Assembly (NCBI GenBank): GCA_028583405.1
Contig: CM053248.1
Coordinates: forward strand, 27,116,769 to 27,180,768
Direction of reading: 5' to 3'
Length of the DNA stretch: 64,000 nucleotides
DNA from: Pogonophryne albipinna
Taxonomy: Eukaryota > Chordata > Actinopteri > Perciformes > Artedidraconidae
Made by a program: the position numbers and the translations under genes. Positions within the stretch are counted from its first letter, which is position 1, and every line of letters begins with the position of its first letter. Under the pieces are notes generated by a model. It worked only from the letters and a program-made list of their open reading frames with translations. It made no database searches and was not told the origin of the DNA. This document shows positions 34,034-57,352 of the stretch, in pieces.

Positions 34034-36775
34034 TTAAAGCTGCAAGCAGCGTTGAGCGGGTCTTCGACGCTCCGCAGGCTGTTGTCCGCACGTCGACGTG
34101 TGTGTAGGTGTCTCGAGGACTCGACCGTTGGCAAACGTGGGAAGTTTCAGGCCGATCGGACAATGTTTTTGAGTTACAGCAGTAACACAAACATTGTGTT
34201 TCATGGCGGGTGATCTGTCGACATGGCAACGGCATTTGATGACACCCCATAATATGCTTAGATGTGTTGAGGGCTGCATCGTTATCAAACCTGTGAAGTG
34301 TTGTGCCGTTTGGAGCATGTTAACTGGAGTTATGAGAAAACCGTGTTTCACGGCGACCATTTTGTTACCATAGCAACGACATTTGACGAAATCTCAAAAC
34401 TGACACATATATGTCTCGAGGGCTTGACGGTTAGCACACATGTACAGTTTGAACAGTTTTTGACCATTCACACAGGACTTATAGCAATATGGTGCTTAAC
34501 GGCGAGGAATGTGTTGCCATGGCAACAGCTTTTGGGCATATTGAGGTGTTGAGGGCCGGACCATTAGCCATCATATGAAATCTGGTGACGTTTGGACGAT
34601 TTTCCATTGAATTACAACAACATTGTATTTTTTGGCGAAGGATGCGTTTCCATGGCAACGGCATATGATGACATCCCATAATTGACATAGAGCTGTTGAG
34701 GGCCTGACCATTAATGATAGTCTGAAGTCTGGTGCGGTTTGGACGATTTTCCATAGAAATACGACAACACCCTGTTTCATGGCGAGGGATCTGTGGCCAT
34801 GGCAACGACATATGATGACATCCCATAATTGGCATAGAGCTGTTGAGGGCCGGACCATTAACTGTCATGTGAAGTGTAGTGCAGTTTGGACGATTTTCCA
34901 TTGAATTACAACAACATTGTATTTTTTGGCGAAGGATGCGTTGCCATGGCAACGGCATATGAGGACATCCCATAATTGACATAGAGCTGTTGAGGGCCTG
35001 ACCATTAATGATAGTCTGAAGTCTGGTGCGGTTTGGACGATTTTCCATAGAAATACGACAACACCCTGTTTCATGGCGAGGGATCTGTGGCCATGGCAAC
35101 GACATATGATGACATCCCATAATTGGCATAGAGCTGTTGAGGGCCGGACCATTAACTGTCATGTGAAGTGTAGTGCAGTTTGGACCATTTACCATTGAAT
35201 TACGACAACACCAGGTTTTTTGGCGAGGGATGCATTGCCATGGAAACGGCATATGATGACATCCCATAATTGGCGTAGAGCTGTTGAGGGCCCGACCATT
35301 AGCCATCATCTGAGGTCTGGTGCCGTTTGGACCATTTTCCATTGACTTACGACAACAGTGTGTTTTATGGCGAGGGATGTGTTGCCATGGCAACGGCATA
35401 TGATGACATCCCATAATTGGCATAGAGCTGTTGAGGGCCGGACCATTAACTGTCATGTGAAGTCTGGTGCAGTTTTGACCATTTTCCATTGAATTACGAC
35501 AACACCAGGTTTTTTGGCGAGGGATGCGTTACCATGGCAACGGCATATGAGGACATCCCCTAATTGACATAGAGCTGTTGAGGGCCAGACCATGAACTGT
35601 CATCTAAAGTGTGGTGCAGTTTAGACGATTTCCCATTGAATTACAACAACACCAGGTTTTTTGGCGAGGGATGTGTTGCCATGGCAACGGCATATGATGA
35701 CATCCCATAATTGGCGTAGAGCTGTTGAGGGCCGGACCATTGACTGTCATCTGAAGTCTGGTGCAGTTTGGACCATTTTCCATTGAATTAGGACAACACC
35801 GTGTTTCATGGCGAGGAATGCGTTGCCATGGAAATGGTATAAGATGACATCCCATAATTGGCGTAGAGCTGTTGAGGGCCCGACCATTAGCCATCATCTG
35901 AGGTCTGGTGCCGTTTGGACCATTTTCATAGGAGTAACAGCGACACCGTGTTTCATGGCGAGGGATCTGTTGCCATGGAAACGGCATATGATGACATCCC
36001 ATAATTGGCATAGAGCTGTTGAGGGCCGGACCATTAATGATAGTCTGAAGTCTGGTGCTGTTTCGACGATTTTCCATTGAATTACAACAACATCGTATTT
36101 TTTGGCGAAGGATGCGTTTCCATGGCAACGGCATACGGTGAGATTTTAGATTTCACGTAGAGCTGTTGAGGGCCGGACCATTAATGATAGTCTGAACTCT
36201 GGTGCGGTTTGGACGATTTTCCATTGAATTACGACAACATCAGGTTTTATGGCGAGGCATGCGTTGCCATGGAAACGGCATATGATGACATCCCATAATT
36301 GGCATAGAGCTGTTGAGGGCCGGACCATTAATGATAGTCTGAAGTCTGGTGCGGTTTGGACGATTTTCCATGGAATTACGACAACACCAGTTTTTTGGCG
36401 AGGGATGCGTTACCATGGCAACGGCATATGATGACATCCCATAATTGACATAGAGCTGTTGAGGGCCGGACCATTAATGATAGTCTGAAGTCTGGTGCTG
36501 TTTGGACGATTTTCCATTGAATTACAACAACATCGTATTTTTTGGCGAAGGATGCGTTGCCATGGAAACGGCATACGGTGAGATCTCAGATTTCACGTTG
36601 AGCTGTTGAGGCATGGACCAGTGATATAAAAGTGAAGATTGGGGGACGATGGGACCGTGTCCATTGGATTTACAGCGACACCGTTGTTTATGGCGAAGGA
36701 TCCGTCGCCATGGTAACGCCAAATTAAGTAACATCAGATTTGACCTAGAGCTGTTCAGGGCTGTAGTGTTAATAA
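34034..36775 (-). repeat. Tandem array of 147-bp units (reverse, about 18 units)
   Basis: The longest array. Units run GAGCTGTTGAGGGCCGGACC, then a variable stretch, then GACGATTTTCCATTGAATTA, then TTTTTTGGCGA, then the X-box-like palindrome, then ATATGATGACATCCCATAAT. Exact 147-base spacing is visible between units at 34940, 35381 and 35675. A 336-codon open frame on the minus strand is just the repeat read in one phase. Confidence 0.87.
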
Positions 36776-37490: not shown

Positions 37491-38228
37491 AATAATTGAA
37501 GAGCTTGAGGAAATTCCTGTTTTAAGAGCAGATCAACCAAGAAGAGTCATCAACTTAATCCAAACTGTGGAGAAAGCACTGGCAGACCTGACAGAGCTTG
37601 AAAGGACAGATGCCATCAAGAACCCACTGGTCACTAGGTCCATAGAGAGCAAGCTGATTCTGTAAAGAAGGATTGGCTCGTCTTCATGGTAAATCCCAGC
37701 AATAGAGTCACCCCTGAGAACCATTTTGACAGTCTCCTCGAGTTTCTGAAGACACAAGAAGAGATTTTGGAAAAACTGGAGCAGCATGGAGTAACTGAAA
37801 AGTCAGAGAAACCGGAAAGGAAGTTTGAAAGAAAATATTGCTCAACACGTTCCACCAGGAGAGACGGACATTGTTTTGTCTGTGGAGAAGAAAGGCTTGA
37901 AGAGAAACTATTCTTTTGCAAGCAGTTCAAGAGCCTAAATCTGGTCGAAAAGTTAGATGCTGTGAAGAGATTGGGAGCTTGTAAGAGGTGTTTGAGATGT
38001 CATGAAGAAGGACATGAATGTGAAAACACCTACCTTTGCAGGAAAGGAGAATGCAAGAAGGGGAGCTCTTCAGACCACCACTTTTTCCTCTGTCCTAAAG
38101 GAGGGTACAGAGAACATGAACTGGACAAAGGTGGGAAAGACTTGAAGAAAAGACCCAAACTCACAGAAGAGCAAGTGAAATGTATTGCTGAACTCTCTCC
38201 CGAAATGGCAGAAAAATGCAAGAACGCC
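37491..38228 (+). pseudogene. gag: BEL/Pao gag, C-terminal piece with Cys/His zinc-binding region
   Basis: After the repeat block the frame reads IIEELEEIPVLRADQPRRVI and LIQTVEKALADLTELERTDA. A stop near 37662 is followed by an adjacent frame with FDSLLEFLKTQEEILEKLEQ and then a Cys/His-rich region (HCFVCGEE, FFCKQF, CKRCLRCHEEGHEC, LCRKGECKKG, HHFFLC) that corresponds to the nucleic-acid-binding zinc knuckles of BEL gag. The frame is cut at 38228 by the Polinton and continues in phase at 52863. Confidence 0.88.
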
Positions 38229-38395
38229 AGTAGTATTAACCATGCGGCATCAATCACATTAGTATGCATAAAAAGTGACAGGTGGACACGCCCCCAATTA
38301 TGCAAATGAGCTAAGTCCCGTTGTTCGAAACCCTTTGATGTGATTGGGTACAATCATGTTAATGAGCTAAGTCCCGCCTCCCATTGTTCGAGATC
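38229..38395. repeat. Outer end of the left Polinton arm
   Basis: Matches the reverse complement of the right end (52690-52856) except for a 6-base gap after AGCTAAGTCCCG and a single substitution in GACAGGTGGACACG (ACATGTGG on the right). It has two copies of an AATGAGCTAAGTCCCG motif. Confidence 0.9.
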
Positions 38396-38705
38396 CTTTG
38401 ATGTGTTGATTAAGGTATGTGTGGAATCCCCCTCAGGGTAATGCTTTTGTTGTCTATTTCTTTGATGTGTTGATTAAGGTAGTCTCTTTGAAGTTATATT
38501 GTCTGATAGGTAGGTGTGGAATGCCCCCCAGGGTAGTGCCTTTGTAGTCTAATTATTTGATGTGAGATAATAGGTAGGTGTGGAATGCCCCCAGGGTAGT
38601 GCCTTTGTAGTCTAATTCTTTGATGTGAGATAATAGGTATGTGTGAAATGCCCCCCAGGGTAGTGCCTTTGTTGTCTATTTCTTTGATGTGTTGATTAAT
38701 GCAGT
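38395..38705. repeat. Subterminal tandem repeats (left arm)
   Basis: Four to five units of about 65-95 bases, each with TTTGATGTG, GGTAGGTGTGGAATGCCCCC and AGGGTAGTGCCTTTGTAGTC. The mirror image is at 52380-52690. No coding potential was seen. Confidence 0.8.
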
Positions 38706-39319
38706 CTCTTTGAAGTTACGCTGTCTGGTCCCCTCAGGGTTGTATAATCTAATTAGCCTGTGATGTTATCCCCTTTGAGGTGGTGTGTTATAAGCCTTTT
38801 GATGTTAATCTATGTGTGTCTTTGAAGTTAAGTGTGAGACTGTCTAACCCCCTCCCCGCCCAGGCCTCTCCCCCCTTTCTCCACCCCTTCCTTTCCCTTC
38901 GGTTGTGTACTTTTCAGAATACGTAAAGGGGGAAACAAATAAAACAATTTAAAAAACATGATCTTTGTCTTTTTTTATAATTACTATACACCACTATAAG
39001 AATTTCCTGTAAGCAACAAAAAAAGAAGGTTTGAATGGTGAAAAAGACTCACCTTTACAGTGCCTCCCACTCAACATAACAAGTCCCGCCCTCCTCACCA
39101 GATCATTTAAAAGTAAGGGGGTGGAAATAGATGAAAATAGGAATATTCTCAAATTAAAAAGACAGTAATCTCCACTTACTAAGTCACCTTGCAAAAAAGA
39201 AAAATGGCCAAGAGACGCCTCGATATGGGTTTAATCAGCGAGACGCCGTGACAACTTACCGATGTAGCACCAGTCAAGAAAACGAATGCAGTATATGGCC
39301 AGGGTTCAGACGCCTACAG

Positions 39320-39491
39320 CCAGAGATCTTTGCATAACCTTATCTCGTGCCCTCTTTTTGGTCATGTGGAGCGCGTTCATGTGTGCTGGAGGAGGGGGCT
39401 ATGTGAGGAAGCGGCAGATTTTCGGTTGTGTACTTTCTAATTCTCGCTCACTGGAGCTGGTTTTCTCCAAAATGATCTATCCCCTACCTTA
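39320..39491. repeat. Solo right arm of the piggyBac-like TTAA family (left Polinton arm)
   Basis: It matches the right arm of the elements at 9334-9721 and 10508-12029 (CGTGCCCTC, GGTCATGTG, GTGTGCTGGAGGAGG, TCGGTTGTGTACTTTC), ending CTACC then TTAAG. Only one arm is present. The mirrored copy is at 51595-51766. Confidence 0.65.
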
Positions 39492-39499
39492 AGAACAAT

Positions 39500-39501
<2 letters not shown>

Positions 39502-39563
<62 letters not shown>
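39502..39563. repeat. (AC)n microsatellite in the left Polinton arm
   Basis: Pure AC run of about 62 bases; the mirrored run at 51519-51577 is slightly shorter. The small length difference is one of the few distinctions between the arms. Confidence 0.95.
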
Positions 39564-39565
<2 letters not shown>

Positions 39566-39909
39566 GTAGGAGTTGGCCTTTTGTGTGGGGGTTAGAGATA
39601 AGCCTGGTATGTTAATCTGTATGTTGATTAAGACACTTTCTATGAGGTGAGAAGCGAGGGGATGGAGTTAGTCTTTAAAAAGAAATACGCTCTAACTAAA
39701 TAAAACAACCATTAATTTTCACTCACTAAGACACATAAAAAAAACGTTATTGTCCTCTCTAGATTTGATTCAGGGTTTTGCTCTAAATGATTAATGCTTG
39801 CTAGGATGTTTTCTTTTCAAGTTATTGTGAAACTGTTAACTTCAAGGAAGTATCTGTTTTTGCAAAGAAGGTATTCATATTAATTTAAAAAGATCTTATT
39901 TAGGTTTTT

Positions 39910-40714
39910 GTGTACTACACTCCTTCTAATCCAGGGAGTTTAGGAGGTGTGGATAAACTCCATAGAGCTGTACAGAATGAAATGGGTAAACAAGTAAATG
40001 TAGAGAAAGTCAGAGAATATTTATCTGAGCAGGATGCATATACTTTGCATAAGCCGGCTCGGGTGCATTTTGTAAGAAACAGAGTTTTCGTACTCAGACC
40101 GTTACAACAATTTCAAGCAGATCTTTGCGATATGCAGTCACTGTCCAAATATAATGATGGTTTTAATTATTTGTTAACAGTCGTAGATGTATTTTCGAAA
40201 AAAGCCTATGCTCAGGCATTAAAGAAGAAGATGGGCATAGAGGTTACCAAGGCCTTTGATACAATTTTAACACACAGTCAGATTCCCAGAAAGATACAAA
40301 CAGACGCAGGGAAAGAATTCTTTAACAAAGTTTTTTCAAACCTTATTGAAGAAACGAGGTATTGCACATTATGCAACAGCCAGTGATATGAAGGCATGTG
40401 TGGTAGAGAGATTTAACCGTACGCTGAAAACTAAAATGTGGCGGTATTTTACAGCTAAAAACACTCATAGATATATAGACGTCTTACCTGAACTAATTGA
40501 AAGTTACAATAATAGTTATAATCGAAGTATTAAAATGACACCAATGCAGGTGACCAAGCAAAATGCGGCTCAAGTGTTTCGGAACCTGTATACCCCATCT
40601 GGCCTTCCTAAAAAAGCTGCTGCCAAAATGAACTTTAAGGAGGGGGAGCTTGTAAGGATATCCAAATTGAGAGGGGTATTTGATAAAAAATATGAGCAGA
40701 GTTATACATGGTAG
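39910..40714 (+). pseudogene. Polinton retroviral-type integrase, left copy, frameshifted
   Basis: The first frame runs from a GTG at 39910 (not a convincing start, so the N terminus is probably lost) with YYTPSNPGSLGGVDKLHRAV and SEQDAYTLHKPARVHF, then QQFQADLCDM, VVDVFSKKAYAQAL and IQTDAGKEFF. Around 40330 a T run has an extra base, and the next frame continues RGIAHYATASDMKACVVERF, NRTLKTKMWRYFTAKNTHRY and KMTPMQVTKQNAAQVF to a stop at 40714. The Asp, Asp and Glu of the rve catalytic triad (ADLCDM, QTDAG, VVERF) are all present but in two frames. The role is DNA cutting and strand transfer of the Polinton ends. The right copy (50368-51172) has the same lesion. Confidence 0.9.
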
Positions 40715-40719
40715 TGGTC

Positions 40720-41340
40720 AGCTTTTAAACACAAAAGTGTATCTTTCGGTAACTTTCTGAGAGAATTTAGGCATAAATCTGTCAAATGTTCAAAACAGCC
40801 TTCACTGAAATAGCCTCAAAATCACAAACTGCCATTAAGAGTCAGAATCCTAACAAAATCTACTAAAACAAAGTTCTTCATTATCTACTTTTTCAGCTTT
40901 TATACACAAAGTGTATCTTTCAGTAACTTTCTCAGAGAATTAAGCATAATTTTGTCAAATGGTCAAAACAGCCTCTGTTTTTCAAGCCTCAAAATCACAA
41001 ATGGCCATTAAGAGGCAGAATCCTAACGAAATCTACTGACACAGAGTACTTCATCATCTACTTTTCAGCTTTTATACACAAAAGTGTATCTTTCAGTAAC
41101 TTTCTCAGAGAATTTAAACATAAATCGGTCAAATGTTCAAAATAGCCTTCACTGACATAGCCTCAAAATCACAAACTGTCATTAAGAGTCAGATTCTTAA
41201 CGAAATCTACTCAGAGTACTTCATGGTAGTGGTCAGCTTTTTTACACAAAGTGTATCTTTCAGTAACTTTCTGCGAAAATTAAGCATAAATCAGTCAAAT
41301 GTTCAAAACAGCCTTCAATGAAATAGCCTCAAAATCACAA
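40720..41340. repeat. Inner ~180-bp tandem repeats, left arm, first block
   Basis: Three to four units share GTGTATCTTTC, AGTAACTTTCTCAGAGAATT, AGCATAAATCTGTCAAATGT, TTCAAAACAGCC and AGCCTCAAAATCACAAACTG. They start directly after the integrase stop. Mirrored at 49740-50365. Confidence 0.85.
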
Positions 41341-42415
41341 ACTGCAACTTTTTAAACAGAGTCAGACATCGATGGACATTATACTGGTGAAAAAGACCCT
41401 CACTTTTGCAGAGGACTCAGCCTCCCACTCAACATAACAAGTCACACCCTCCTCACCAGATCATTTAAAACTAAAGACCCCTCAAAGAAAAGCATTGTGT
41501 TTTCTACCTATGTAAAAGGTCTTACAAAAATGTGTTATCTCTGTATCAAGATGATGTGTTTAAAAATGAATCTTGTGAAAAATACCAACTGTGTGAGAGA
41601 CGTCATAAAGACACTCATTTTAACCACAGTGTTTGGTCTCTACAAATGTTTAAAGATTGTTACAAAATGTAAAAAATAATAAAAGGTATGGAGACAAAAT
41701 TAATTCAGGTGACTCTGTCTATTATTAGGAAAACAAAAATATAAGACAAATGGTTTAAGGGGTAAAAAATGTAACCATCTTGGACTTAATATTCTAACAA
41801 AATACTTTATCTGAATACATTTCTTTTAAACGCACTTTTTGAAATTATTTATATATTATTTCAGTGCAACAATCCAGTTTTTGTTAACATCAACGCTTTT
41901 TTCTCTTTTCTTGTGTTACTAAGATACTTTTAGACACACTTTGGCGTATGCAACACTTAACAACTGGTAGATTATGAAGTGCTTTTGTAAGGAATTTGGT
42001 TTTCTTTTAATGGCAGGGTTTTTTTATTGCTGTAAAAACACTTATTCAGTTAAACAAGGTTTTTTCTTTTTTTCTGATAACCTTACATATTTTAGTTATT
42101 TTCTGCTACCAAAATACTTTAAGATACACCTTGATGTACGCAACACTTAACAAAAGGGTATAATATGAAGTACTTGGTAGGAATGGGGTTTTCTTTAAGG
42201 GGTGCAAAACTTTAGAACTGGGTAAAATATTCATTAATTTGTAATGAATAGAGTTTCTTTCTTTTGATTTTCAGCATACTATTTTGCACACAATGACTTT
42301 TCCATATTTCTGACAAACTATACTTTTGACTTGTTCTGCAAAATCTTGACAAACTATTACTTATTCTTAAATTTGACCTATTGCTGTTTGGTTGGAAATG
42401 ATAGATGAAAAAACT
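41341..42415. other. AT-rich inner segment of the left arm
   Basis: About 1.1 kb with two diverged copies of a motif containing CGCAACACTTAACAA and TGAAGT, and AT-rich DNA otherwise. An open frame of 60 codons at 41497-41679 has no recognisable family. Mirrored at 48665-49740. Confidence 0.6.
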
Positions 42416-42709
42416 ACAACGCCTACTTTTCAGCTTTTATACACAAAAGTGTATCTTTCAGTAACTTTCTCAGAGAATTTAAACATAAATCTGTCAAATG
42501 TTCAAAACAGCTTTGTTTCACTGACATAGCCTCAAAATCACAAACTGTCATTAAGAGTCAGATTCTTAACGAAATCTACTCAGAGTACTTCATGGTAGTG
42601 GTCAGCTTTTTTATACACAAAGTGTATCTTTCAGTAACTTTCTGACAAAATTAAGCATAAATCAGTCAAATGTTCAAAACAGCCTTCACTGAAATAGCGT
42701 CAAAATCAC

Positions 42710-42785
42710 AAACTGTACAGTGAACTGGAGAAATTACAGCACAGAGTTTTCTACTACGACACAGATAGTATAATCTATGTGACAA
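42710..42785 (+). pseudogene. DNA polymerase B motif-C fragment, copy 1 (left arm)
   Basis: The plus-strand frame reads KLYSELEKLQHRVF followed by YYDTDSIIYV. YxDTDS is motif C of family B DNA polymerases, the aspartates that bind the catalytic metal, and this spacing is that of protein-primed Polinton polymerases. Only about 25 codons survive, embedded between repeat units, with no other polymerase motif in the window. Confidence 0.75.
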
Positions 42786-43102
42786 GCGAAATCTACTCAG
42801 AGTACTTCATGGTAGTGGTCAGCTTTTTATACACAAAGTGTATCTTCCAGTAACTTTCTGACAAAATTAAGCATAAATCAGTCAAATGTTCAAAACACCC
42901 TTCACTGAAATAGCCTCAAAATCACAAACTGCCATTAAGAGTCAGGATCCTAACAAAATCTACTCAAACAGAGTACTTCATGGTAGTGGTCAGCTTTTAT
43001 ACACAAAAGTGTATCTCTCAGTAACTTTCTCAGAGAATTTAAGCATAAATCTGTCAAATGTTAAATACAGCCTTGTTTCACTGAAATAGCGTCAAAATCA
43101 CA

Positions 43103-43200
43103 AACTGTACAGTGAACTGGAGAAATTACAGCACAGAGTTTTCTACTACGACACAGATAGTATAATCTATGTGACAAGACAGGGGCAGTCTCCAGTACTT
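43103..43200 (+). pseudogene. DNA polymerase B motif-C fragment, copy 2 (left arm)
   Basis: Same frame and motif as the copy at 42710, extended by TRQGQSPV to about 33 codons. It runs into repeat sequence on both sides. Confidence 0.75.
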
Positions 43201-43652
43201 TCATGGTAGTGGACAGCTTTTAAAAAAGAAAAGTGTATCTTTCGGTAACCTTTTTGAGAGAATTAAGCATAAATCTGTCAAATGTTCAAAACGGTCTTCA
43301 CTGAAATAGCCTCAAAATGACAAATTGCCATTAAGAGTCAGATGCTTGACGAAATCTCATGGTAGTGGTCAGCTTTTAAAACATAAAAGTGTATCTTTCG
43401 GTAACTTTTTGAGAGAATTAAGCATAAATCTGTCAAATGTTCAAAACACCCTTCACTGAAATAGCCTCAAAATCACAAACTGCCATTAAGAGTCAGGATC
43501 CTAACAAAATCTACTCAAACAGAGTACTTCATGGTAGTGGTCAGCTTTTATACACAAAAGTGTATCTCTCAGTAACTTTCTCAGAGAATTTAAGCATAAA
43601 TCTGTCAAATGTTCAAAACAGCCTTGTTTCACTGAAATAGCGTCAAAATCAC

Positions 43653-43750
43653 AAACTGTACAGTGAACTGGAGAAATTACAGCACAGAGTTTTCTACTAC
43701 GACACAGATAGTATAATCTATGTGACAAGACAGGGGCAGTCTCCAGTACT
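43653..43750 (+). pseudogene. DNA polymerase B motif-C fragment, copy 3 (left arm)
   Basis: Essentially identical to the copy at 43103-43200 and duplicated along with the surrounding 550-bp unit. Confidence 0.75.
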
Positions 43751-44009
43751 TTCATGGTAGTGGACAGCTTTTAAAAAGAAAAGTGTATCTTTCGGTAACC
43801 TTTTGAGAGAATTAAGCATAAATCTGTCAAATGTTCAAAACGGTCTTCACTGAAATAGCCTCAAAATGACAAATTGCCATTAAGAGTCAGATGCTTGACG
43901 AAATCTCATGGTAGTGGTCAGCTTTTAAAACATAAAAGTGTATCTTTCGATAACTTTTTGAGAGAATTAAGCATAAATCTGTCAAATGTTCAAAACTGCC
44001 TTGGTTCAC

Positions 44010-44340
44010 TGAAATGGATAAATGTATCCGAAAATAGTGTCTCTTAAGGCAGGTAGAGTCCCCAGATAACTCCCGTTACATTCCTCCAGAGTCAGAAATA
44101 GTGTAAGTTAACTTTTGGAAGAACCAGAGAAAAGGGTGAAAATGGATAAAATATATCCGAAAATAGTGTCTCTTAAGGCAGGTAGAGTCCCCTGACAACT
44201 CCCCTTACATTCATCCAGAGTCAGAAAAAGTCTCTACGTTATCTTTTTTGGGGGAACCAGAGGAAAGGGGTGAAAATGGAGAAATTGTATCCGAAAATAG
44301 TGTCTCTTAAGGCGGGTAGAGTATGAGAATTGAACGATAA
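44010..44340. repeat. ~125-bp tandem repeats near the centre of the left arm
   Basis: Three units with CCGAAAATAGTGTCTCTTAA and GGTAGAGT, ending at the ORF remnant below. One more unit is near 45075-45240. Mirrored in the right arm. Confidence 0.8.
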
Positions 44341-44436
44341 AGCGATCACTGTAAATGAAACGCGGAGAGAAGCAGCAGTGCAAATCGTTAAGTCTATTAC
44401 CTTGTATGCACTACGACACTATCTTGGTAAAATGTA
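44268..44436 (+). pseudogene. Unrecognised C-terminal ORF remnant, copy 1
   Basis: In one frame: VKMEKLYPKIVSLKAGRV, a TGA, then ELNDKAITVNETRREAAVQI and VKSITLYALRHYLGKM ending in TAA. A second copy at 45178-45343 lacks the TGA (a tryptophan codon there) but has a stop further on. The similarity of the peptide in two copies with lesions at different places suggests the 3' end of a former Polinton gene. I do not recognise the family. Confidence 0.45.
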
Positions 44437-44707
44437 ATGTGTTTTTTTTATGAAAATGTGTTGAATGTTGTGTTTTCAATTAAACAACCATTACAAAATG
44501 AAAATGTGTTTTATTTTTATTTTTTTGCTTTCATATATAGTAATAGTATTGTAAACGAAACATTTAAAATGTATCATGTGCTCTCATTGTATGCTCTGTT
44601 TTTTTGTTTTTTTTCAGTAACTTTCTCAGAGAATTTAAGCATAAATCAGTCAAATGTTCAAAACAGCCTTGTTTCACTGAAATGGCGTCAAAATCACAAA
44701 CTGGCTG

Positions 44708-44810
44708 AAACTATACAGTGAATTGGAGAAATTACAGCACAGAGTTTTCTACTACGACACAGATAGTATAATCTATGTGACAAGACAGGGGCAGTCTCCA
44801 GTACTTTCAT
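44708..44810 (+). pseudogene. DNA polymerase B motif-C fragment, copy 4 (left arm)
   Basis: Contains the same YYDTDSIIYV-TRQGQSPV segment, with slight changes upstream (CTATAC for CTGTAC). It again lies between repeat units, beside SLKW-type repeat sequence. Confidence 0.75.
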
Positions 44811-45177
44811 GGTAGTGGACAGCTTTTAAAAAGAAAAGTGTATCTTTCGGTAACCTTTTGAGAGAATTAAGCATAAATCTGTCAAATGTTCAAAACAGCC
44901 TTGTTTCACTGAAATATTCTCAAAATGACAAATTGCCATTAAGAGTCAGATGCTTGACGAAATCTCATGGTAGTGGTCAGCTTTTAAAACATAAAAGTGT
45001 ATCTTTCGGTAACTTTTTGAGAGAATTAAGCATAAATCTGTCAAATGTTCAAAACTGCCTTGGTTCACTGAAATGGATAAATGTATCCGAAAATAGTGTC
45101 TCTTTAGGCGGATAAAGTCCCCTGATAACTCCCGTTACATTCTCCAGAGCCAGAAATAGTGTAAGTTAACTTTTGGA

Positions 45178-45343
45178 AGAACCAGAGAAAAGGGTGAAAA
45201 TGGATAAAATATATCCGAAAATAGTGTCTCTTAAGGCGGGTAGAGTATGGGAATTGAACGATAAAGCGATCACTGTAAATGAAACGCGGAGAGAAGCAGC
45301 AGTGCAAATCGTTAAGTCTATCACCTTGTATGCACTACGACAT
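45178..45343 (+). pseudogene. Unrecognised C-terminal ORF remnant, copy 2
   Basis: The frame reads LLEEPEKRVKMDKIYPKIVS and continues LKAGRVWELNDKAITVNETR to a TAA eleven codons before the end of copy 1. No known domain. Mirrored on the minus strand at 45740-45905. Confidence 0.42.
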
Positions 45344-45526
45344 TAACTTGGTAAAATGTAATGTGTTTTTTATGAAAATGTGTTGAATGTGGGGTTTTCA
45401 ATTAAACAACCATTACAAAATGAAAATGTGTTTTATTTTATTTTTTTGCTTTCATATAAAGTAATAGTATTGTAAACGAAACATTTAAAATGTATCATGT
45501 GCTCTCATTGTATGCTCTGTTTTTTT

Positions 45527-45554
45527 GACACAAAAGATGCATTACATCTAAAAT
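45527..45554. other. Palindrome centre: 28-bp spacer
   Basis: The left arm ends GTATGCTCTG plus seven T; the right arm begins with eight A plus CAGAGCATAC. Between them are 28 bases including AGATGCATTACATCT, whose ends can pair, so the hairpin can extend almost to the axis. Confidence 0.88.
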
Positions 45555-46271
45555 AAAAAAAACAGAGCATACAATGAGAGCACATGATACATTTTAAATG
45601 TTTCGTTTACAATACTATTACTTTATATGAAAGCAAAAAAAAAAAAAAAAACACATTTTCATTTTGTAATGGTTGTTTAATTGAAAACCCCACATTCAAC
45701 ACATTTTCATAAAAAACACATTACATTTTACCAAGTTAATGTCGTAGTGCATACAAGGTGATAGACTTAACGATTTGCACTGCTGCTTCTCTCCGCGTTT
45801 CATTTACAGTGATCGCTTTATCGTTCAATTCCCATACTCTACCCGCCTTAAGAGACACTATTTTCGGATATATTTTATCCATTTTCACCCTTTTCTCTGG
45901 TTCTTCCAAAAGTTAACTTACACTATTTCTGGCTCTGGAGAATGTAACGGGAGTTATCAGGGGACTTTATCCGCCTAAAGAGACACTATTTTCGGATACA
46001 TTTATCCATTTCAGTGAACCAAGGCAGTTTTGAACATTTGACAGATTTATGCTTAATTCTCTCAAAAAGTTACCGAAAGATACACTTTTATGTTTTAAAA
46101 GCTGACCACTACCATGAGATTTCGTCAAGCATCTGACTCTTAATGGCAATTTGTCATTTTGAGAATATTTCAGTGAAACAAGGCTGTTTTGAACATTTGA
46201 CAGATTTATGCTTAATTCTCTCAAAAGGTTACCGAAAGATACACTTTTCTTTTTAAAAGCTGTCCACTACC

Positions 46272-46375
46272 ATGAAAGTACTGGAGACTGCCCCTGTCTT
46301 GTCACATAGATTATACTATCTGTGTCGTCGTAGAAAACTCTGTGCTGTAATTTCTCCAATTCACTGTATAGTTTC
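46272..46375 (-). pseudogene. DNA polymerase B motif-C fragment, right-arm mirror of copy 4
   Basis: Minus-strand reading of the YYDTDSIIYV region. A single change here gives CGTCGTAG for CGTAGTAG-type sequence in other copies. Confidence 0.72.
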
Positions 46376-47331
46376 AGCCAGTTTGTGATTTTGACGCCAT
46401 TTCAGTGAAACAAGGCTGTTTTGAACATTTGACTGATTTATGCTTAAATTCTCTGAGAAAGTTACTGAAAAAAAACAAAAAAACAGAGCATACAATGAGA
46501 GCACATGATACATTTTAAATGTTTCGTTTACAATACTATTACTATATATGAAAGCAAAAAAATAAAAATAAAACACATTTTCATTTTGTAATGGTTGTTT
46601 AATTGAAAACACAACATTCAACACATTTTCATAAAAAAAAACACATTACATTTTACCAAGATAGTGTCGTAGTGCATACAAGGTAATAGACTTAACGATT
46701 TGCACTGCTGCTTCTCTCCGCGTTTCATTTACAGTGATCGCTTTATCGTTCAATTCTCATACTCTACCCGCCTTAAGAGACACTATTTTCGGATACAATT
46801 TCTCCATTTTCACCCCTTTCCTCTGGTTCCCCCAAAAAAGATAACGTAGAGACTTTTTCTGACTCTGGATGAATGTAAGGGGAGTTGTCAGGGGACTCTA
46901 CCTGCCTTAAGAGACACTATTTTCGGATATATTTTATCCATTTTCACCCTTTTCTCTGGTTCTTCCAAAAGTTAACTTACACTATTTCTGACTCTGGAGG
47001 AATGTAACGGGAGTTATCTGGGGACTCTACCTGCCTTAAGAGACACTATTTTCGGATACATTTATCCATTTCAGTGAACCAAGGCAGTTTTGAACATTTG
47101 ACAGATTTATGCTTAATTCTCTCAAAAAGTTACCGAAAGATACACTTTTATGTTTTAAAAGCTGACCACTACCATGAGATTTCGTCAAGCATCTGACTCT
47201 TAATGGCAATTTGTCATTTTGAGGCTATTTCAGTGAAGACCGTTTTGAACATTTGACAGATTTATGCTTAATTCTCTCAAAAGGTTACCGAAAGATACAC
47301 TTTTCTTTTTAAAAGCTGTCCACTACCATGA

Positions 47332-47429
47332 AAGTACTGGAGACTGCCCCTGTCTTGTCACATAGATTATACTATCTGTGTCGTAGTAGAAAACTCTGTG
47401 CTGTAATTTCTCCAGTTCACTGTACAGTT
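47332..47429 (-). pseudogene. DNA polymerase B motif-C fragment, right-arm mirror of copy 3
   Basis: Same motif-C segment on the minus strand, mirror of 43653-43750. Confidence 0.74.
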
Positions 47430-47881
47430 TGTGATTTTGACGCTATTTCAGTGAAACAAGGCTGTTTTGAACATTTGACAGATTTATGCTTAAATTCTCT
47501 GAGAAAGTTACTGAGAGATACACTTTTGTGTATAAAAGCTGACCACTACCATGAAGTACTCTGTTTGAGTAGATTTTGTTAGGATCCTGACTCTTAATGG
47601 CAGTTTGTGATTTTGAGGCTATTTCAGTGAAGGGTGTTTTGAACATTTGACAGATTTATGCTTAATTCTCTCAAAAAGTTACCGAAAGATACACTTTTAT
47701 GTTTTAAAAGCTGACCACTACCATGAGATTTCGTCAAGCATCTGACTCTTAATGGCAATTTGTCATTTTGAGGCTATTTCAGTGAAGACCGTTTTGAACA
47801 TTTGACAGATTTATGCTTAATTCTCTCAAAAAGGTTACCGAAAGATACACTTTTCTTTTTAAAAGCTGTCCACTACCATGA

Positions 47882-47979
47882 AAGTACTGGAGACTGCCCC
47901 TGTCTTGTCACATAGATTATACTATCTGTGTCGTAGTAGAAAACTCTGTGCTGTAATTTCTCCAGTTCACTGTACAGTT
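47882..47979 (-). pseudogene. DNA polymerase B motif-C fragment, right-arm mirror of copy 2
   Basis: Same motif-C segment on the minus strand, mirror of 43103-43200. Confidence 0.74.
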
Positions 47980-48296
47980 TGTGATTTTGACGCTATTTCA
48001 GTGAAACAAGGCTGTATTTAACATTTGACAGATTTATGCTTAAATTCTCTGAGAAAGTTACTGAGAGATACACTTTTGTGTATAAAAGCTGACCACTACC
48101 ATGAAGTACTCTGTTTGAGTAGATTTTGTTAGGATCCTGACTCTTAATGGCAGTTTGTGATTTTGAGGCTATTTCAGTGAAGGGTGTTTTGAACATTTGA
48201 CTGATTTATGCTTAATTTTGTCAGAAAGTTACTGGAAGATACACTTTGTGTATAAAAAGCTGACCACTACCATGAAGTACTCTGAGTAGATTTCGC

Positions 48297-48372
48297 TTGT
48301 CACATAGATTATACTATCTGTGTCGTAGTAGAAAACTCTGTGCTGTAATTTCTCCAGTTCACTGTACAGTTT
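48297..48372 (-). pseudogene. DNA polymerase B motif-C fragment, right-arm mirror of copy 1
   Basis: Shorter form of the motif-C segment on the minus strand, mirror of 42710-42785. Confidence 0.72.
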
Positions 48373-50367
48373 GTGATTTTGACGCTATTTCAGTGAAGGC
48401 TGTTTTGAACATTTGACTGATTTATGCTTAATTTTGTCAGAAAGTTACTGAAAGATACACTTTGTGTATAAAAAAGCTGACCACTACCATGAAGTACTCT
48501 GAGTAGATTTCGTTAAGAATCTGACTCTTAATGACAGTTTGTGATTTTGAGGCTATGTCAGTGAAACAAAGCTGTTTTGAACATTTGACAGATTTATGTT
48601 TAAATTCTCTGAGAAAGTTACTGAAAGATACACTTTTGTGTATAAAAGCTGAAAAGTAGGCGTTGTAGTTTTTTCATCTATCATTTCCAACCAAACAGCA
48701 ATAGGTCAAATTTAAGAATAAGTAATAGTTTGTCAAGATTTTGCAGAACAAGTCAAAAGTATAGTTTGTCAGAAATATGGAAAAGTCATTGTGTGCAAAA
48801 TAGTATGCTGAAAATCAAAAGAAAGAAACTCTATTCATTACAAATTAATGAATATTTTACCCAGTTCTAAAGTTGTGCACCCCTTAAAGAAAACCCCATT
48901 CCTACCAAGTACTTCATATTATACCCTTTTGTTAAGTGTTGCGTACATCAAGGTGTATCTTAAAGTATTTTGGTAGCAGAAAATAACTAAAATATGTAAG
49001 GTTATCAGAAAAAAAGAAAAAACCTTGTTTAACTGAATAAGTGTTTTTACAGCAATAAAAAAACCCTGCCATTAAAAGAAAACCAAATTCCTTACAAAAG
49101 CACTTCATAATCTACCAGTTGTTAAGTGTTGCATACGCCAAAGTGTGTCTAAAAGTATCTTAGTAACACAAGAAAAGAGAAAAAAGCGTTGATGTTAACA
49201 AAAACTGGATTGTTGCACTGAAATAATATATAAATAATTTCAAAAAGTGCGTTTAAAAGAAATGTATTCAGATAAAGTATTTTGTTAGAATATTAAGTCC
49301 AAGATGGTTACATTTTTTACCCCTTAAACCATTTGTCTTATATTTTTGTTTTCCTAATAATAGACAGAGTCACCTGAATTAATTTTGTCTCCATACCTTT
49401 TTTTATTTTTTACATTTTGTAACAATCTTTAAACATTTGTAGAGACCAAACACTGTGGTTAAAATGAGTGTCTTTATGACGTCTCTCACACAGTTGGTAT
49501 TTTTCACAAGATTCATTTTTAAACACATCATCTTGATACAGAGATAACACATTTTTGTAAGACCTTTTACATAGGTAGAAAACACAATGCTTTTCTTTGA
49601 GGGGTCTTTAGTTTTAAATGATCTGGTGAGGAGGGTGTGACTTGTTATGTTGAGTGGGAGGCTGAGTCCTCTGCAAAAGTGAGGGTCTTTTTCACCAGTA
49701 TAATGTCCATCGATGTCTGACTCTGTTTAAAAAGTTGCAGTTTGTGATTTTGAGGCTATTTCATTGAAGGCTGTTTTGAACATTTGACTGATTTATGCTT
49801 AATTTTCGCAGAAAGTTACTGAAAGATACACTTTGTGTAAAAAAGCTGACCACTACCATGAAGTACTCTGAGTAGATTTCGTTAAGAATCTGACTCTTAA
49901 TGACAGTTTGTGATTTTGAGGCTATGTCAGTGAAGGCTATTTTGAACATTTGACCGATTTATGTTTAAATTCTCTGAGAAAGTTACTGAAAGATACACTT
50001 TTGTGTATAAAAGCTGAAAAGTAGATGATGAAGTACTCTGTGTCAGTAGATTTCGTTAGGATTCTGCCTCTTAATGGCCGTTTGTGATTTTGAGGCTTGA
50101 AAAACAGAGGCTGTTTTGACCATTTGACAAAATTATGCTTAATTCTCTGAGAAAGTTACTGAAAGATACACTTTGTGTATAAAAGCTGAAAAAGTAGATA
50201 ATGAAGAACTTTGTTTTAGTAGATTTTGTTAGGATTCTGACTCTTAATGGCAGTTTGTGATTTTGAGGCTATTTCAGTGAAGGCTGTTTTGAACATTTGA
50301 CAGATTTATGCCTAAATTCTCTCAGAAAGTTACCGAAAGATACACTTTTGTGTTTAAAAGCTGACCA

Positions 50368-51172
50368 CTACCATGTATAACTCTGCTCATATTTTTTATC
50401 AAATACCCCTCTCAATTTGGATATCCTTACAAGCTCCCCCTCCTTAAAGTTCATTTTGGCAGCAGCTTTTTTAGGAAGGCCAGATGGGGTATACAGGTTC
50501 CGAAACACTTGAGCCGCATTTTGCTTGGTCACCTGCATTGGTGTCATTTTAATACTTCGATTATAACTATTATTGTAACTTTCAATTAGTTCAGGTAAGA
50601 CGTCTATATATCTATGAGTGTTTTTAGCTGTAAAATACCGCCACATTTTAGTTTTCAGCGTACGGTTAAATCTCTCTACCACACATGCCTTCATATCACT
50701 GGCTGTTGCATAATGTGCAATACCTCGTTTCTTCAATAAGGTTTGAAAAAACTTTGTTAAAGAATTCTTTCCCTGCGTCTGTTTGTATCTTTCTGGGAAT
50801 CTGACTGTGTGTTAAAATTGTATCAAAGGCCTTGGTAACCTCTATGCCCATCTTCTTCTTTAATGCCTGAGCATAGGCTTTTTTCGAAAATACATCTACG
50901 ACTGTTAACAAATAATTAAAACCATCATTATATTTGGACAGTGACTGCATATCGCAAAGATCTGCTTGAAATTGTTGTAACGGTCTGAGTACGAAAACTC
51001 TGTTTCTTACAAAATGCACCCGAGCCGGCTTATGCAAAGTATATGCATCCTGCTCAGATAAATATTCTCTGACTTTCTCTACATTTACTTGTTTACCCAT
51101 CTCATTCTGTACAGCTCTATGGAGTTTATCCACACCTCCTAAACTCCCTGGATTAGAAGGAGTGTAGTACAC
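50368..51172 (-). pseudogene. Polinton retroviral-type integrase, right copy, frameshifted
   Basis: Mirror image of 39910-40714. The same two frames, the same extra base in the homopolymer near 50750, and all three catalytic acidic residues are present. The translations of the two open frames are identical to the left copy as far as compared; at nucleotide level there are synonymous or flanking differences only (for example near 51100, CATCTCATT against CATTTCATT). Sharing one lesion means the duplication came after the damage, or conversion has kept the arms alike. Confidence 0.9.
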
Positions 51173-51516
51173 AAAAACCTAAATAAGATCTTTTTAAATT
51201 AATATGAATACCTTCTTTGCAAAAACAGATACTTCCTTGAAGTTAACAGTTTCACAATAACTTGAAAAGAAAACATCCTAGCAAGCACTAATCATTTAGA
51301 GCAAAACCCTGAATCAAATCTAGAGAGGACAATAACGTTTTTTTTATGTGTCTTAGTGAGTGAAAATTAATGGTTGTTTTATTTAGTTAGAGCGTATTTC
51401 TTTTTAAAGACTAACTCCATCCCCTCGCTTCTCACCTCATAGAAAGTGTCTTAATCAACATACAGATTAACATACCAGGCTTATCTCTAACCCCCACACA
51501 AAAGGCCAACTCCTAC

Positions 51517-51518
<2 letters not shown>

Positions 51519-51577
<59 letters not shown>
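51519..51577. repeat. (GT)n microsatellite in the right Polinton arm
   Basis: Mirror of the AC run at 39502-39563, a few bases shorter. Confidence 0.95.
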
Positions 51578-51578
<1 letters not shown>

Positions 51579-51594
51579 ATTGTTCTTAAGGTAG

Positions 51595-51766
51595 GGGATA
51601 GATCATTTTGGAGAAAACCAGCTCCAGTGAGCGAGAATTAGAAAGTACACAACCGAAAATCTGCCGCTTCCTCACATAGCCCCCTCCTCCAGCACACATG
51701 AACGCGCTCCACATGACCAAAAAGAGGGCACGAGATAAGGTTATGCAAAGATCTCTGGCTGTAGGC
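51595..51766. repeat. Solo arm of the piggyBac-like TTAA family (right Polinton arm)
   Basis: Mirror of 39320-39491. Confidence 0.62.
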
Positions 51767-52379
51767 GTCTGAACCCTGGCCATATACTGCATTCGTTTTC
51801 TTGACTGGTGCTACATCGGTAAGTTGTCACGGCGTCTCGCTGATTAAACCCATATCGAGGCGTCTCTTGGCCATTTTTCTTTTTTGCAAGGTGACTTAGT
51901 AAGTGGAGATTACTGTCTTTTTAATTTGAGAATATTCCTATTTTCATCTATTTCCACCCCCTTACTTTTAAATGATCTGGTGAGGAGGGCGGGACTTGTT
52001 ATGTTGAGTGGGAGGCACTGTAAAGGTGAGTCTTTTTCACCATTCAAACCTTCTTTTTTTTGTTGCTTACAGGAAATTCTTATAGTGGTGTATAGTAATT
52101 ATAAAAAAAGACAAAGATCATGTTTTTTAAATTGTTTTATTTGTTTCCCCCTTTACGTATTCTGAAAAGTACACAACCGAAGGGAAAGGAAGGGGTGGAG
52201 AAAGGGGGGAGAGGCCTGGGCGGGGAGGGGGTTAGACAGTCTCACACTTAACTTCAAAGACACACATAGATTAACATCAAAAGGCTTATAACACACCACC
52301 TCAAAGGGGATAACATCACAGGCTAATTAGATTATACAACCCTGAGGGGACCAGACAGCGTAACTTCAAAGAGACTGCA

Positions 52380-52856
52380 TTAATCAACACATCAAAGAAA
52401 TAGACAACAAAGGCACTACCCTGGGGGGCATTTCACACATACCTATTATCTCACATCAAAGAATTAGACTACAAAGGCACTACCCTGGGGGCATTCCACA
52501 CCTACCTATTATCTCACATCAAATAATTAGACTACAAAGGCACTACCCTGGGGGGCATTCCACACCTACCTATCAGACAATATAACTTCAAAGAGACTAC
52601 CTTAATCAACACATCAAAGAAATAGACAACAAAAGCATTACCCTGAGGGGGATTCCACACATACCTTAATCAACACATCAAAGGATCTCGAACAATGGGA
52701 GGCGGGACTTAGCTCATTAACATGATTGTACCCAATCACATCAAAGGGTTTCGAACAATGGAGGCGGGACTTAGCTCATTTGCATAATTGGGGGCGTGTC
52801 CACATGTCACTTTTTATGCATACTAATGTGATTGATGCCGCATGGTTAATACTACT
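52380..52856. repeat. Subterminal repeats and outer end of the right Polinton arm
   Basis: Mirror of 38229-38705, including 4-5 units with GGGGGCATTCCACACCTACC and the terminal GGTTAATACTACT. It is followed by the AACGCC target duplication. Confidence 0.88.
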
Positions 52857-52862
52857 AACGCC

Positions 52863-54027: not shown

Positions 54028-54257
54028 ATAGATGGCGCCTGTGTCGGCATGCCGCTCCCTCAGCTCTCTGCCTTTAGCTATCCTGTTTTTGTTTTATGTT
54101 TGTCAGAATGTCCCTGCTCTGCTTGTCTATGATCACCAAGGTCTCCTCCACCTAAGACCCTCACTGGAGTTTATACTGCTCCCCAAACCTATATCTGGCA
54201 ACCGTAAATCGACTCCCCCCCCCTCTACTGTCAAATATTCCCACCTACCTGCGCCGG

Positions 54258-56093
54258 TTGCCCTGCATCCTGCCTCACCGAAAGCGCTTTAGGCGACGGG
54301 GAAAACGTGGTGGCGCGCTCGTCCATCAAAAAGCACACCTGACGGCTTCTTCCGTGACTTATCCACGTATAAGATGTCATGGCCCTCCCGCTGCACGCCA
54401 TCCGAGGGTTCGGTGGATTCGCCCTGTTTTTCCGGAGCTGCGGCCTCTGCTGGGCCCGCTGGCAGCTCCTCCTGCCCGACTGACTGCTCCCGGTCCGCGC
54501 GGCGTTCAACACGCACATCTTCGTCAGCTAAGACGCACTACACCTTCGGCCAGCCCGGAGAGAAAACTCTGCATGGCTTTGCTAAATGCTAGGTCAATAG
54601 CAAACAAGACGTTCCTGTTAAACGACTTCTTCACCTCTCATGATCTGGATTTAATGTTCCTGACGGAGACCTGGGTCCACACCGGCGAGTATGTACCGTT
54701 TTCTGAACTTCTTCCTCCCGACTGTACTTTCTTCAGCTTCCCCCGTACCACCGGCCGTGGTTGGGGTATAGCTTCAGTGTTTAGAGCTAATCTCCAATGC
54801 CGTTTGCTTCACCCAGTAACTAGCTATGCTAGCTTCGAGTTGCCGCTTTTTGAGCTGAACCTGGCCTCACCTATACTATGCGCAGTCGTGTATCGTCCGC
54901 CAAAGTACAATAATGATTTTATAACTGATTTTTCTGACTTTCTGTCCGGGATCATAGTGAAATATGATCGTGTTTTGATCTGCGGAGACTTTAATGTCCA
55001 TGTGTGCTGCGAGTCTAAACCTCTGGTTAGGGATTTTTTAAACCTCCTCGACTCTTTCGGTCTCATTCAGTCTGTGGCTGGCCCAACACATGATAAAGGA
55101 CATACCTTAGACTTAGTATTATCGTTTGGATTGTCTATCTTTGTGGATGAAATCTGTGCAGGAACGCGTATCTCAGACCATTTACCGGTTCTGTTTACAA
55201 CCTCGATCCCTTCTGCGGGAGTCGAATCATGTGCCCCTGCGCGTTGTCTGCGTTCAATTAACCCCTTGACTGCCTCACAGTTTTCAGATGCTTTTAATAC
55301 TTATCCGATTTGTAAATTAGAGGTGAACTGTGCTTTTAGTGCGGATGAGCTTATCTCTTTGTTTGATTCGACATGCACACTAATACTGGATTCCGTTGCT
55401 CCTTTTACGCTTAGACGCAACAAAGTTCTCTCAGAGCCGTGGCTCAACGATTGTACTCGCGCTTTTAGACGCGCTTGTAGGCGTGCAGAGAGAAAATGGA
55501 AAAAGGATAAACTTCATGTCTCCTTAGAAATTCTTCGCGCTTGCCTTTCGGATTATCAGATGGCAGTTAAAGCAGCCAAAACAGAGTATATTTCTCTGTT
55601 AATCTCCAAAAACAGCCATAAACCTCAAGTTCTTTTTAATGTCCTCAATTCGATCATTAATCCTTGTGATGCCTCTCCCATTGTGCCATCAACTACTCTC
55701 TGCGATACATTTCTTACATTTTTTATCGAAAAAGTATCTGCTCTAAGGCTAGCCTATACTAGTGTTACCCCAGATCCTGCTCCCTTTCTGTGCCCTGCTG
55801 TCCTCGACCATTTTGAGCCTGTATCCCTCTCTTCTCTCTCGGAAGTAGTCAAGCACCTCCGGCCGACAAACTGCACCTTAGACAGCATTCCCTCTCGCTT
55901 CCTTAGAGATGTTTTTGAATCAGTTGGAGCAAGTGTTTTATTGCTTGTAAACACCTCTCTTAGCTCAGGATGTGTCCCAGCTGCCTTCAAACATGCCGTG
56001 GTTAAGCCACTACTTAAAAAGATCCCTCCATTCTCGCAAATTTCAGGCCCATCTCCCAGCTACCCTTTTTATCTAAAGCCTTGGAGCGAGTAG
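54258..56093 (+). pseudogene. LINE endonuclease and RT N-terminal frame
   Basis: 611 codons from the first ATG. A basic N terminus (RKRFRRRGKRGG) precedes the endonuclease: LNARSIANKTFLLNDFFTSH, LDLMFLTETWV, VYRPPKYNNDFITDFSDFLS, LICGDFNVHV and RISDHLPVLF. The Asn, Glu, GDFN and SDH residues of APE-type LINE endonucleases are present. It continues into the finger region (LRPTNCTLDSIPSRF, KHAVVKPLLKK) and then leaves frame after a run of five A at 56016-56020, probably one base short. The true polypeptide would continue in the 56081 frame. Confidence 0.9.
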
Positions 56094-57352
56094 TCTACGC
56101 CCAGCTGCAGTCGTTTTTAACCACGCATGGCATCCACGAAAAATTTCAGTCTGGCTTTAAACCTATGCATAGCACTGAAACAGCCCTTTTAAGAGTTTTT
56201 AATGATCTGCTCTTAGCCACCGATTCAGGCAGCCCAGCTGTCTTGGTGCTGTTAGACTTAACTGCTGCCTTTGACACTGTGGATCATAGTATCCTGTTGT
56301 CATGGCTTGAACAGTCCGCAGGTATTACAGGCTCTGCTCTTGCATGGTTTAGGTCTTACCTGACGGACCGTAGCTTCTCAGTGCAGTTGGGTGCCTTCTC
56401 CTCTGCCAAAGCCCCTCTTACCTGTGGGGTTCCCCAAGGCTCGATTCTGGGCCCCATCCTTTTCCTATTGTACATACTGCCCCTAGGTTCAATTCTCATA
56501 AAACATAATATCCCCTTCCATTGTTACGCTGATGATGTACAGATGTACCTGCCTCTCAATGAAAATGCCAATTCACTACAGCAGTTGAAGGACTGCTTAA
56601 TGGAGATAAAATCCTGGCTGAGCCAAAACTTCCTTACCCTCAATGAGAGCAAGACCGAGGTCATCTTTTTTGGACCCCAACCAACAGTCTCCCCGGTTGA
56701 TATTCTGGGCTCCCTCAATAAAAATATCCTCCCCTCTGTCATGAACCTTGGAGTGACCTTCAACAGCGCCTTTAAATTTGATAAGCAGGTTAGTACTGTA
56801 GTCAAGACCTGCTTTTTCAAAATACGACTATTGGCTAAGACCAAGTCGTTTTTATCTTTTAAAGACCTAGAAAGGGTTATTAACGCCTTTGTTACCTCGA
56901 GACTGGATTACTGCAATGCTCTGTATGTGGGTATGGATCAGGCCTCAATTAGGCGCCTCCAGCTAGTTCAGAACGCAGCTGCACGTCTTCTTACTGGCCA
57001 TAAAAAGCGTGACCATATCACCCCAATTCTGGCCTCACTGCACTGGCTTCCAGTTCGGTTCAGAATAGATTTTAAACTCCTTTTATTTGTTTTCAAAGCC
57101 CTAAATGGGCTGGCTCCGGCCTATATAGTCGAACTCCTCCATCGTTACACCCCAGGCAGAGCCTTAAGGTCGGCTGATCAGCTGCTGTTGATAGTGCCTA
57201 AGACCAGGCTTAAAACCCGAGGGCATCGAGTTTTCGCAGCGGCTGGCCCTAGGCTCTGGAATACTTTTCCCCTCCATGTGAGGTCGGCCCAGACCCTGGG
57301 GGTTTTTAAATCAACACTTAAAACTCACTTTTTCTCTCTGGCTTTTGTTTAA
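56021..57352 (+). pseudogene. LINE reverse transcriptase frame
   Basis: The frame used after the A-run lesion is open from about 56021. It includes FQSGFKPMHSTETALLRVFN, LDLTAAFDTVDHSILLSWLE (motif A), CGVPQGSILGPILFLLYILP (motif B), CYADDVQMYL with the YADD active site (motif C) and the C-terminal RLWNTFPLHVRSAQTLGVFK block to a stop at 57350-57352. Apart from the single frameshift it looks undamaged. Confidence 0.92.

Follow-up and report, generated by a model that had tools for sequence, protein, structure and literature searches.

A multi-copy family of palindromic, non-autonomous Polintons in the genome of Pogonophryne albipinna

We describe here a near-perfect palindrome of 14.6 kb (positions 38229-52856) in a 64-kb stretch of the genome of the fish Pogonophryne albipinna (hereafter the window, meaning the whole stretch that was analyzed). 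The palindrome is one copy of a family of non-autonomous Polintons (also called Mavericks) in which a rearranged Polinton integrase end is present as an inverted dimer that integrates as a unit. The initial annotation of this DNA had proposed a palindrome with arms of 7.3 kb, termini beginning with AG and a duplication of AACGCC, all of which was borne out by the alignment of the arms and by the flanks. Aligned to each other, the arms span 7,293 columns with 10 substitutions (0.14%) and 13 gap columns that stem from 5 indel events, and the termini (AGTAGTATTAAC on the left and GTTAATACTACT on the right) are of the Maverick/Polinton type, AGTAGT...ACTACT. The 28-bp spacer described in that annotation does exist as a 28-base stretch, but the distance between the arms comes to 29 bases.

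The palindrome family and its origin

The same genome (1.07 Gb in 861 contigs) was searched with the terminal 372 bp of the element, which gave 40 full-length matches among those scored. Twenty-six of these form 13 facing pairs (the window included) with ends 10-14.6 kb apart; for the remaining 14, no partner was present in the scored set. We analyzed 10 of the 12 facing pairs outside the window; these are window-like copies with both ends intact and therefore a non-random sample. All ten, each at its own site, proved to be palindromic, so the arm-spacer-arm structure that the initial annotation had suggested looking for does occur elsewhere in the genome. AGTAGT...ACTACT ends and a perfect 6-bp target duplication were found in all 11 elements (the window copy and these ten), the duplications of the ten others being different; this agrees with the earlier view of a non-autonomous palindromic type of Polinton that is integrated as a unit. 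The 28-base spacer (with up to three mismatches) occurred at 74 sites in the genome and its reversed control at none. Among 30 center loci, the window again included, an oppositely oriented arm of at least 500 bp was present on both flanks in 24, less than this in 4 and on one side only in 2, and family-type ends numbered 1,047 genome-wide (control, 0).

Perfect hairpins are a familiar artefact of long-read data, and a missed adapter, a hairpin read or a misjoined repeat might produce such a structure. Here, however, the left flank differs from the right while one reading frame runs through both, a perfect 6-bp duplication of its own is found at each of the 11 loci, and the two arms of an element show 2-17 differences in the outer region. 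Since the ten other loci have their own flanks and duplications, neither chance nor an assembly artefact at one locus can account for the structure; we rejected the artefact on these grounds and regard its probability as negligible.

The initial annotation had envisaged a single fold-back event producing this one molecule; what we found instead is a family of many copies that goes back to one origin. The match to polymerase-linked integrase (that of Polintons carrying a polymerase gene, described below) ends at position 2743 of that copy in all 22 arms of the 11 elements, and the junction sequence was present in 20/20 arms of the ten further loci. The integrase portion lost in the arms includes the chromodomain of the polymerase-linked integrase. 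A center core is common to 8 of the 11 elements; in the remaining three it was not found and the turning point is shifted to one side, as expected if the center of an unstable palindrome suffered deletions. Because one integrase breakpoint is common to all 22 arms, the palindrome must have arisen once and then multiplied. If instead each palindrome had been made separately, through an inverted duplication or a conversion event at its own site within an ordinary integrated Polinton, then the outer arms of one copy would indeed be more alike than those of different copies, as they are; the identical breakpoint, the identical core in 8/11 copies, the 74 spacer sites and the one-sided shifts in the three copies without a core speak against it. 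We rejected independent formation on the common breakpoint and center and consider it very improbable.

Two one-armed copies of the palindrome lie about 45 kb apart beside a sulfotransferase-like frame (loci L040 and L041 on contig G000:C175; the frame was named by eye) and share 99% identity over 2.8 kb. They were considered as the palindrome's parent and rejected, since what lies on their opposite side is the sulfotransferase-like frame. Elsewhere, at G000:C2:4141699-4323802, ends on one strand with a spacing of about 5 kb recur every 83-94 kb, perhaps through segmental duplication.

Arm anatomy and polymerase-bearing relatives

Reading inward, each arm consists of a terminal region like a Polinton end, an AC repeat, a frameshifted integrase, tandem repeats, a stretch outside the arrays (41346-42429 in the left arm) and more repeats with polymerase fragments (Table 1). 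The integrase that the initial annotation placed near each end is there; both copies are truncated, both point inward and both are split by the identical frameshift. The inner 4.8 kb of the arm is made up mostly of tandem repeats plus short fragments of a polymerase gene. These fragments carry the motif YYDTDSIIYVT of a protein-primed polymerase and match a polymerase gene on contig C23 in DNA. Within the stretch outside the arrays, 41385-41474 repeats 39036-39116 (near the end of the arm) at 83%, a trace of an earlier rearrangement.

Table 1. Coordinates of the palindrome, its parts and the surrounding host element in the window
Feature	Position	Strand	Remark
Probable left long terminal repeat, BEL-like element	25843-26258	+	
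Target-site duplication, left copy (AACGCC)	38223-38228	.	
Left arm	38229-45526	+	Starts AGTAGT; 7,298 bp
Terminal part, piecewise match to polymerase-bearing Polinton ends in this genome	38229-39377	+	Mirrored at right end
AC dinucleotide repeat, left arm	39502-39563	.	2 units longer than right-arm counterpart
Integrase core fragment (Pfam rve)	39904-40383	+	
Second integrase fragment, different frame	40271-40711	+	Match to polymerase-linked integrase ends at 40707; chromodomain end missing
Integrase-to-foreign-repeat junction	40707-40718	+	Abrupt change at 40707
First tandem array, 173-bp units	40718-41345	+	
Inner tandem arrays, left arm	42430-43658	+	Further repeats extend to center
Protein-primed DNA polymerase gene fragment (motif YYDTDSIIYVT), copy 1	42710-42786	+	
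Polymerase fragment, copy 2	43102-43191	+	
Polymerase fragment, copy 3	43653-43742	+	
Tandem array, 129-bp units	44012-44322	+	
Polymerase fragment, copy 4	44703-44797	+	95 bp, 91.6% to polymerase gene at G000:C23
Inter-arm center, 29 bases	45527-45555	.	Contains 28-base stretch GACACAAAAGATGCATTACATCTAAAAT
Right arm	45556-52856	-	Ends ACTACT; 7,301 bp
Second integrase fragment, mirror copy	50368-50811	-	Identical frame break
First integrase fragment, mirror copy	50696-51178	-	
Target-site duplication, right copy (AACGCC)	52857-52862	.	
Probable right long terminal repeat, BEL-like element	62055-62475	+	94.1% identical to left repeat

The integrase fragment shares 73% identity with its best protein match in the database and 61% with a protein of another fish, Lucifuga dentata; no relatives of it were found among viral contigs. 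Its frame is open across the tested pieces in only 3/11 elements, and the pooled ratio of nonsynonymous to synonymous polymorphism (pN/pS), 0.56, mixes broken with open copies and permits no conclusion on selection. No capsid-type Pfam match was obtained in the 11 stop-to-stop arm pieces scanned, although Pfam may lack capsid models. A polymerase gene is absent from the arm, in which only matched fragments of at most 95 bp occur, and the element is thus a non-autonomous derivative.

The same genome contains candidate helpers. When it was searched for the viral B-type polymerase family, 78 pPolB matches were obtained from 59 candidates, and the 20 polymerase pieces analyzed belong to one family (93.5-99.9% identical). 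In the copy on contig C23, which was seen at its integrase end only, the polymerase lies on one strand and the integrase on the other, about 5.7 kb past the matched polymerase stretch and followed by an AGTAGT end; this integrase is 97.5% identical in DNA to that of the window. Contig C11 holds a copy whose end lies outside the polymerase gene and is related, at 79%, to the integrase end on C23. As judged from these sequences, ordinary members of the family have the layout of a vertebrate Maverick, and in the palindrome the integrase end is present in two copies. With no polymerase gene of its own and a 97.5% identical, polymerase-linked integrase in the same genome, the palindrome is likely to be mobilized by proteins supplied in trans; that its integration used such proteins, as the initial annotation proposed for the integrase, is very likely. 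That annotation also took the arm to be one Polinton end copied back on itself. Pieces of the polymerase-linked copy do match (within the outer arm, positions 26-666, 834-889, 892-1149 and 1682-2479 only), but the inner 4.8 kb is mostly repeats and the arm is no simple intact end.

Homogeneity of arms and ends

Trees of the outer 2.0-2.4 kb place both arms of an element as sisters in 11/11 elements (FastTree; IQ-TREE ultrafast bootstrap 93-100), and the same pairing is recovered in 10/11 from the terminal region alone and in 9/11 from the integrase alone. The outer arms differ by 0.08-0.8% within an element and by 1.1-4.0% between these 11 elements. A single origin without subsequent homogenization would make the difference within elements at least as large as that between them; since it is smaller, the outer arms evolve in concert. 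There are 75 outer differences within elements, and in 54 of them the state is unique among the elements. Beside the center (the central 280 bp, measurable in 18 of 37 center sets, the remainder being without it on at least one side), the arms differ by 1.26% on average, with a mean of 2.7% between elements. Three sibling copies, taken to be separate insertions from their position on three contigs and their lengths (13.8, 12.3 and 13.7 kb), have five arm differences in common, all at most 340 columns from the center; in one of these copies the left arm is misaligned farther out. Their common differences show that both arms can be passed on together and that re-copying, if real, sometimes stops short of the center. 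Separate left and right lineages near the center throughout the family were considered and rejected, as the family as a whole gave no such signal (2.70% on the same side, 2.74% on opposite sides; 82 of 2000 relabellings reach the observed value), with the three siblings as the exception.

The ends themselves are matched as well. Among 97 of the 1,047 family-type ends there were 59 distinct terminal 41-42-mers, the roughly 20 bp following AGTAGT being highly diverse between elements. Nevertheless, 26 of 32 neighboring facing pairs were identical across the terminal 41-42 bp (about one would be expected by shuffling), including a pair 23.5 kb apart that encloses a polymerase match. The bit scores of the 372-bp matches at the two ends of an element differ by 3.0 on average versus 25.6 under random pairing, a comparison that lacks pairs whose second end scored below those listed. 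Twelve of the 32 facing pairs are less than 10 kb apart, one of them with the spacer, and probably represent further shortened versions of Polintons of this family.

The current view is that Polinton replication is protein-primed and proceeds on linear molecules, and protein-primed strand displacement of the adenovirus type yields single strands whose ends can pair (a panhandle). We favor, with modest confidence, a reading in which the arms of the family described above are kept alike because, during such replication, one arm is copied anew from its partner, starting at the ends and moving inward. At the founding step, a linear Polinton molecule would have undergone copy-back at a short T/A run, synthesis switching there to the complementary strand; as the origin of the palindrome this is plausible. 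Its copies would be replicated by the protein-primed polymerase of the polymerase-bearing Polintons of the same genome and inserted by their integrase. In the palindrome the whole displaced strand could pair, beyond the ends that form a panhandle, and would fold into a hairpin of about 7 kb; an incomplete strand (the 3' arm) would then be filled in from the other arm, beginning at the ends, which would leave the outer arms alike and the center least alike. The common denominator would be a transfer of sequence between one end and the other. Such a replicative model expects matched ends in all members, homogenized outer arms in the palindromes and a neglected center.

Several observations weigh against this reading. 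Aligning the arm to a polymerase-bearing Polinton, the check put forward in the initial annotation, matched pieces of the outer arm, but most of arm positions 3117-4202 found no match in the polymerase-linked pieces examined (about 70-85 bp matched). In the arm, polymerase fragments and integrase share one orientation, whereas the two genes of the polymerase-linked copy are opposed, so that more than one rearrangement is needed. Of the 75 outer arm differences, 21 recur in other elements, 14 of those in two copies. In the central 280 bp the arms are mutually nearest on both sides in only 6/18 elements, and among the eight elements measured in both regions the center was the more diverged in five and the less diverged in three. 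The ten arm differences of the window show no gradient (Kolmogorov-Smirnov p 0.78; few data). If ends were always re-copied, then spacer-bearing pairs should match, yet identical ends were found in 3/7 of these versus 23/25 pairs without the spacer pattern, two known palindromes missed by that pattern being counted among the 25. Finally, the extrachromosomal protein-primed stage is one that we infer, and chromosomal gene conversion could yield the same homogeneity of the arms.

Conversion is indeed a serious rival, and one that we consider possible, if the less probable: the family would be the same, its replication would be ordinary and its arms would be kept alike by chromosomal gene conversion after insertion. 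It would also make the outer arms sisters in 11/11 elements, and it would account for the roughly 300 bp beside the center, where stiff duplex arms could hardly pair, being on average less homogenized, as well as for the mismatched ends in 4/7 spacer-bearing pairs versus 2/25 others; it explains the neglected center and these mismatched ends at least as well as replication does. Conversion has been invoked for Galileo, whose terminal repeats are 98-100% identical within a copy (PMC3573991). Less in keeping with it, the ten arm differences in the window are evenly spread with no converted tracts visible, and the 54/75 outer differences that are unique and confined to one arm fit mutation after an identical start. 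Matched ends in 23/25 pairs without the spacer pattern, including the polymerase-enclosing pair, likewise follow less naturally from conversion, given that the ends of ordinary members lie up to 23 kb apart.

More tentatively still, and as a doubtful proposal, the replicative reading may be extended to a "snap-back transposon," a heritable inverted dimer whose displaced strand folds on itself so that, beginning at the ends, each round of rewriting makes one arm a copy of its partner. Divergence between the arms would then serve as an insertion clock, as that between long terminal repeats does in retrotransposons, and the terminal 42 bp, which vary between elements but usually match within one, would betray this process at work in ordinary Polintons too.

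Relation to known elements and surroundings of the insertion

To our knowledge, no linear Polinton molecule of the kind thought to replicate has yet been captured from a vertebrate. The palindromic family, whose many copies have arms that evolve together, is a standing genetic record of events between the two ends of such a molecule, and the suspected mode of copying now becomes testable through hairpin or linear species of known size, inward homogenization and dependence on polymerase-bearing relatives. It also shows that Polintons are able to spawn multi-copy, foldback-like parasites of themselves. Adenovirus and linear plasmids also form palindromic molecules. Snap-back genomes are described for another linear DNA virus, in the snap-back particles of adeno-associated virus (PMC8235507); there, too, a palindromic molecule consists of one end plus its complement, but such genomes are by-products of replication, whereas the Polinton palindrome is an integrated, inherited, multi-copy family.

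According to PMC8097293, vertebrate Mavericks have (AGT)2//(ACT)2 ends, a 6-bp target duplication and an inward integrase module, and intact ones have inverted repeats of 46-1,447 bp. The palindrome family has the same ends, duplication and inward integrase, but its repeat is 7.3 kb long, its integrase is present at both ends and truncated, and a polymerase gene is lacking. We classify it as a non-autonomous, foldback-like Polinton derivative: ends, duplication and integrase are those of a Polinton, while polymerase and repeat length are not. Galileo, a transposon of the P superfamily with 7-bp target duplications, has inverted repeats of great length that contain tandem repeats, and some copies consist only of the two repeats (PMC3573991). 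The palindrome family resembles Galileo/Foldback elements in its long inverted repeats, tandem subrepeats, near-identical arms and copies made of two repeats only, and differs from Galileo in being a Polinton with 6-bp duplications (11/11), an integrase and polymerase-bearing relatives. PMC3573991 mentions, in one sentence, a reported expansion of Polinton inverted repeats. A literature search at the level of titles found, among those listed, no publication on palindromic or non-autonomous Polintons or Mavericks.

The palindrome of the window is inserted in a BEL-like retroelement, a family assigned by eye from the sequence. When the flanks are joined, a single open reading frame runs through the insertion site (both AACGCC copies and six bases of the element were retained in the joining, which makes 12 extra bases, in frame); its aspartyl-protease match is weak and under the Pfam cut-off, and further integrase-like frames, also judged by eye, lie downstream in the host element. 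The two long terminal repeats differ by 12 mismatches and 2 gaps per 425 columns, and comparison with the 0.14% substitutions between the arms makes the palindrome a younger insertion than its host. Also within the BEL-like element, at 54156-57352 of the window, two long frames resemble (by eye) the endonuclease and reverse transcriptase of a long interspersed nuclear element. Tandem repeats of about 147 bp with a partly open minus-strand frame occupy window positions 35604-36642.

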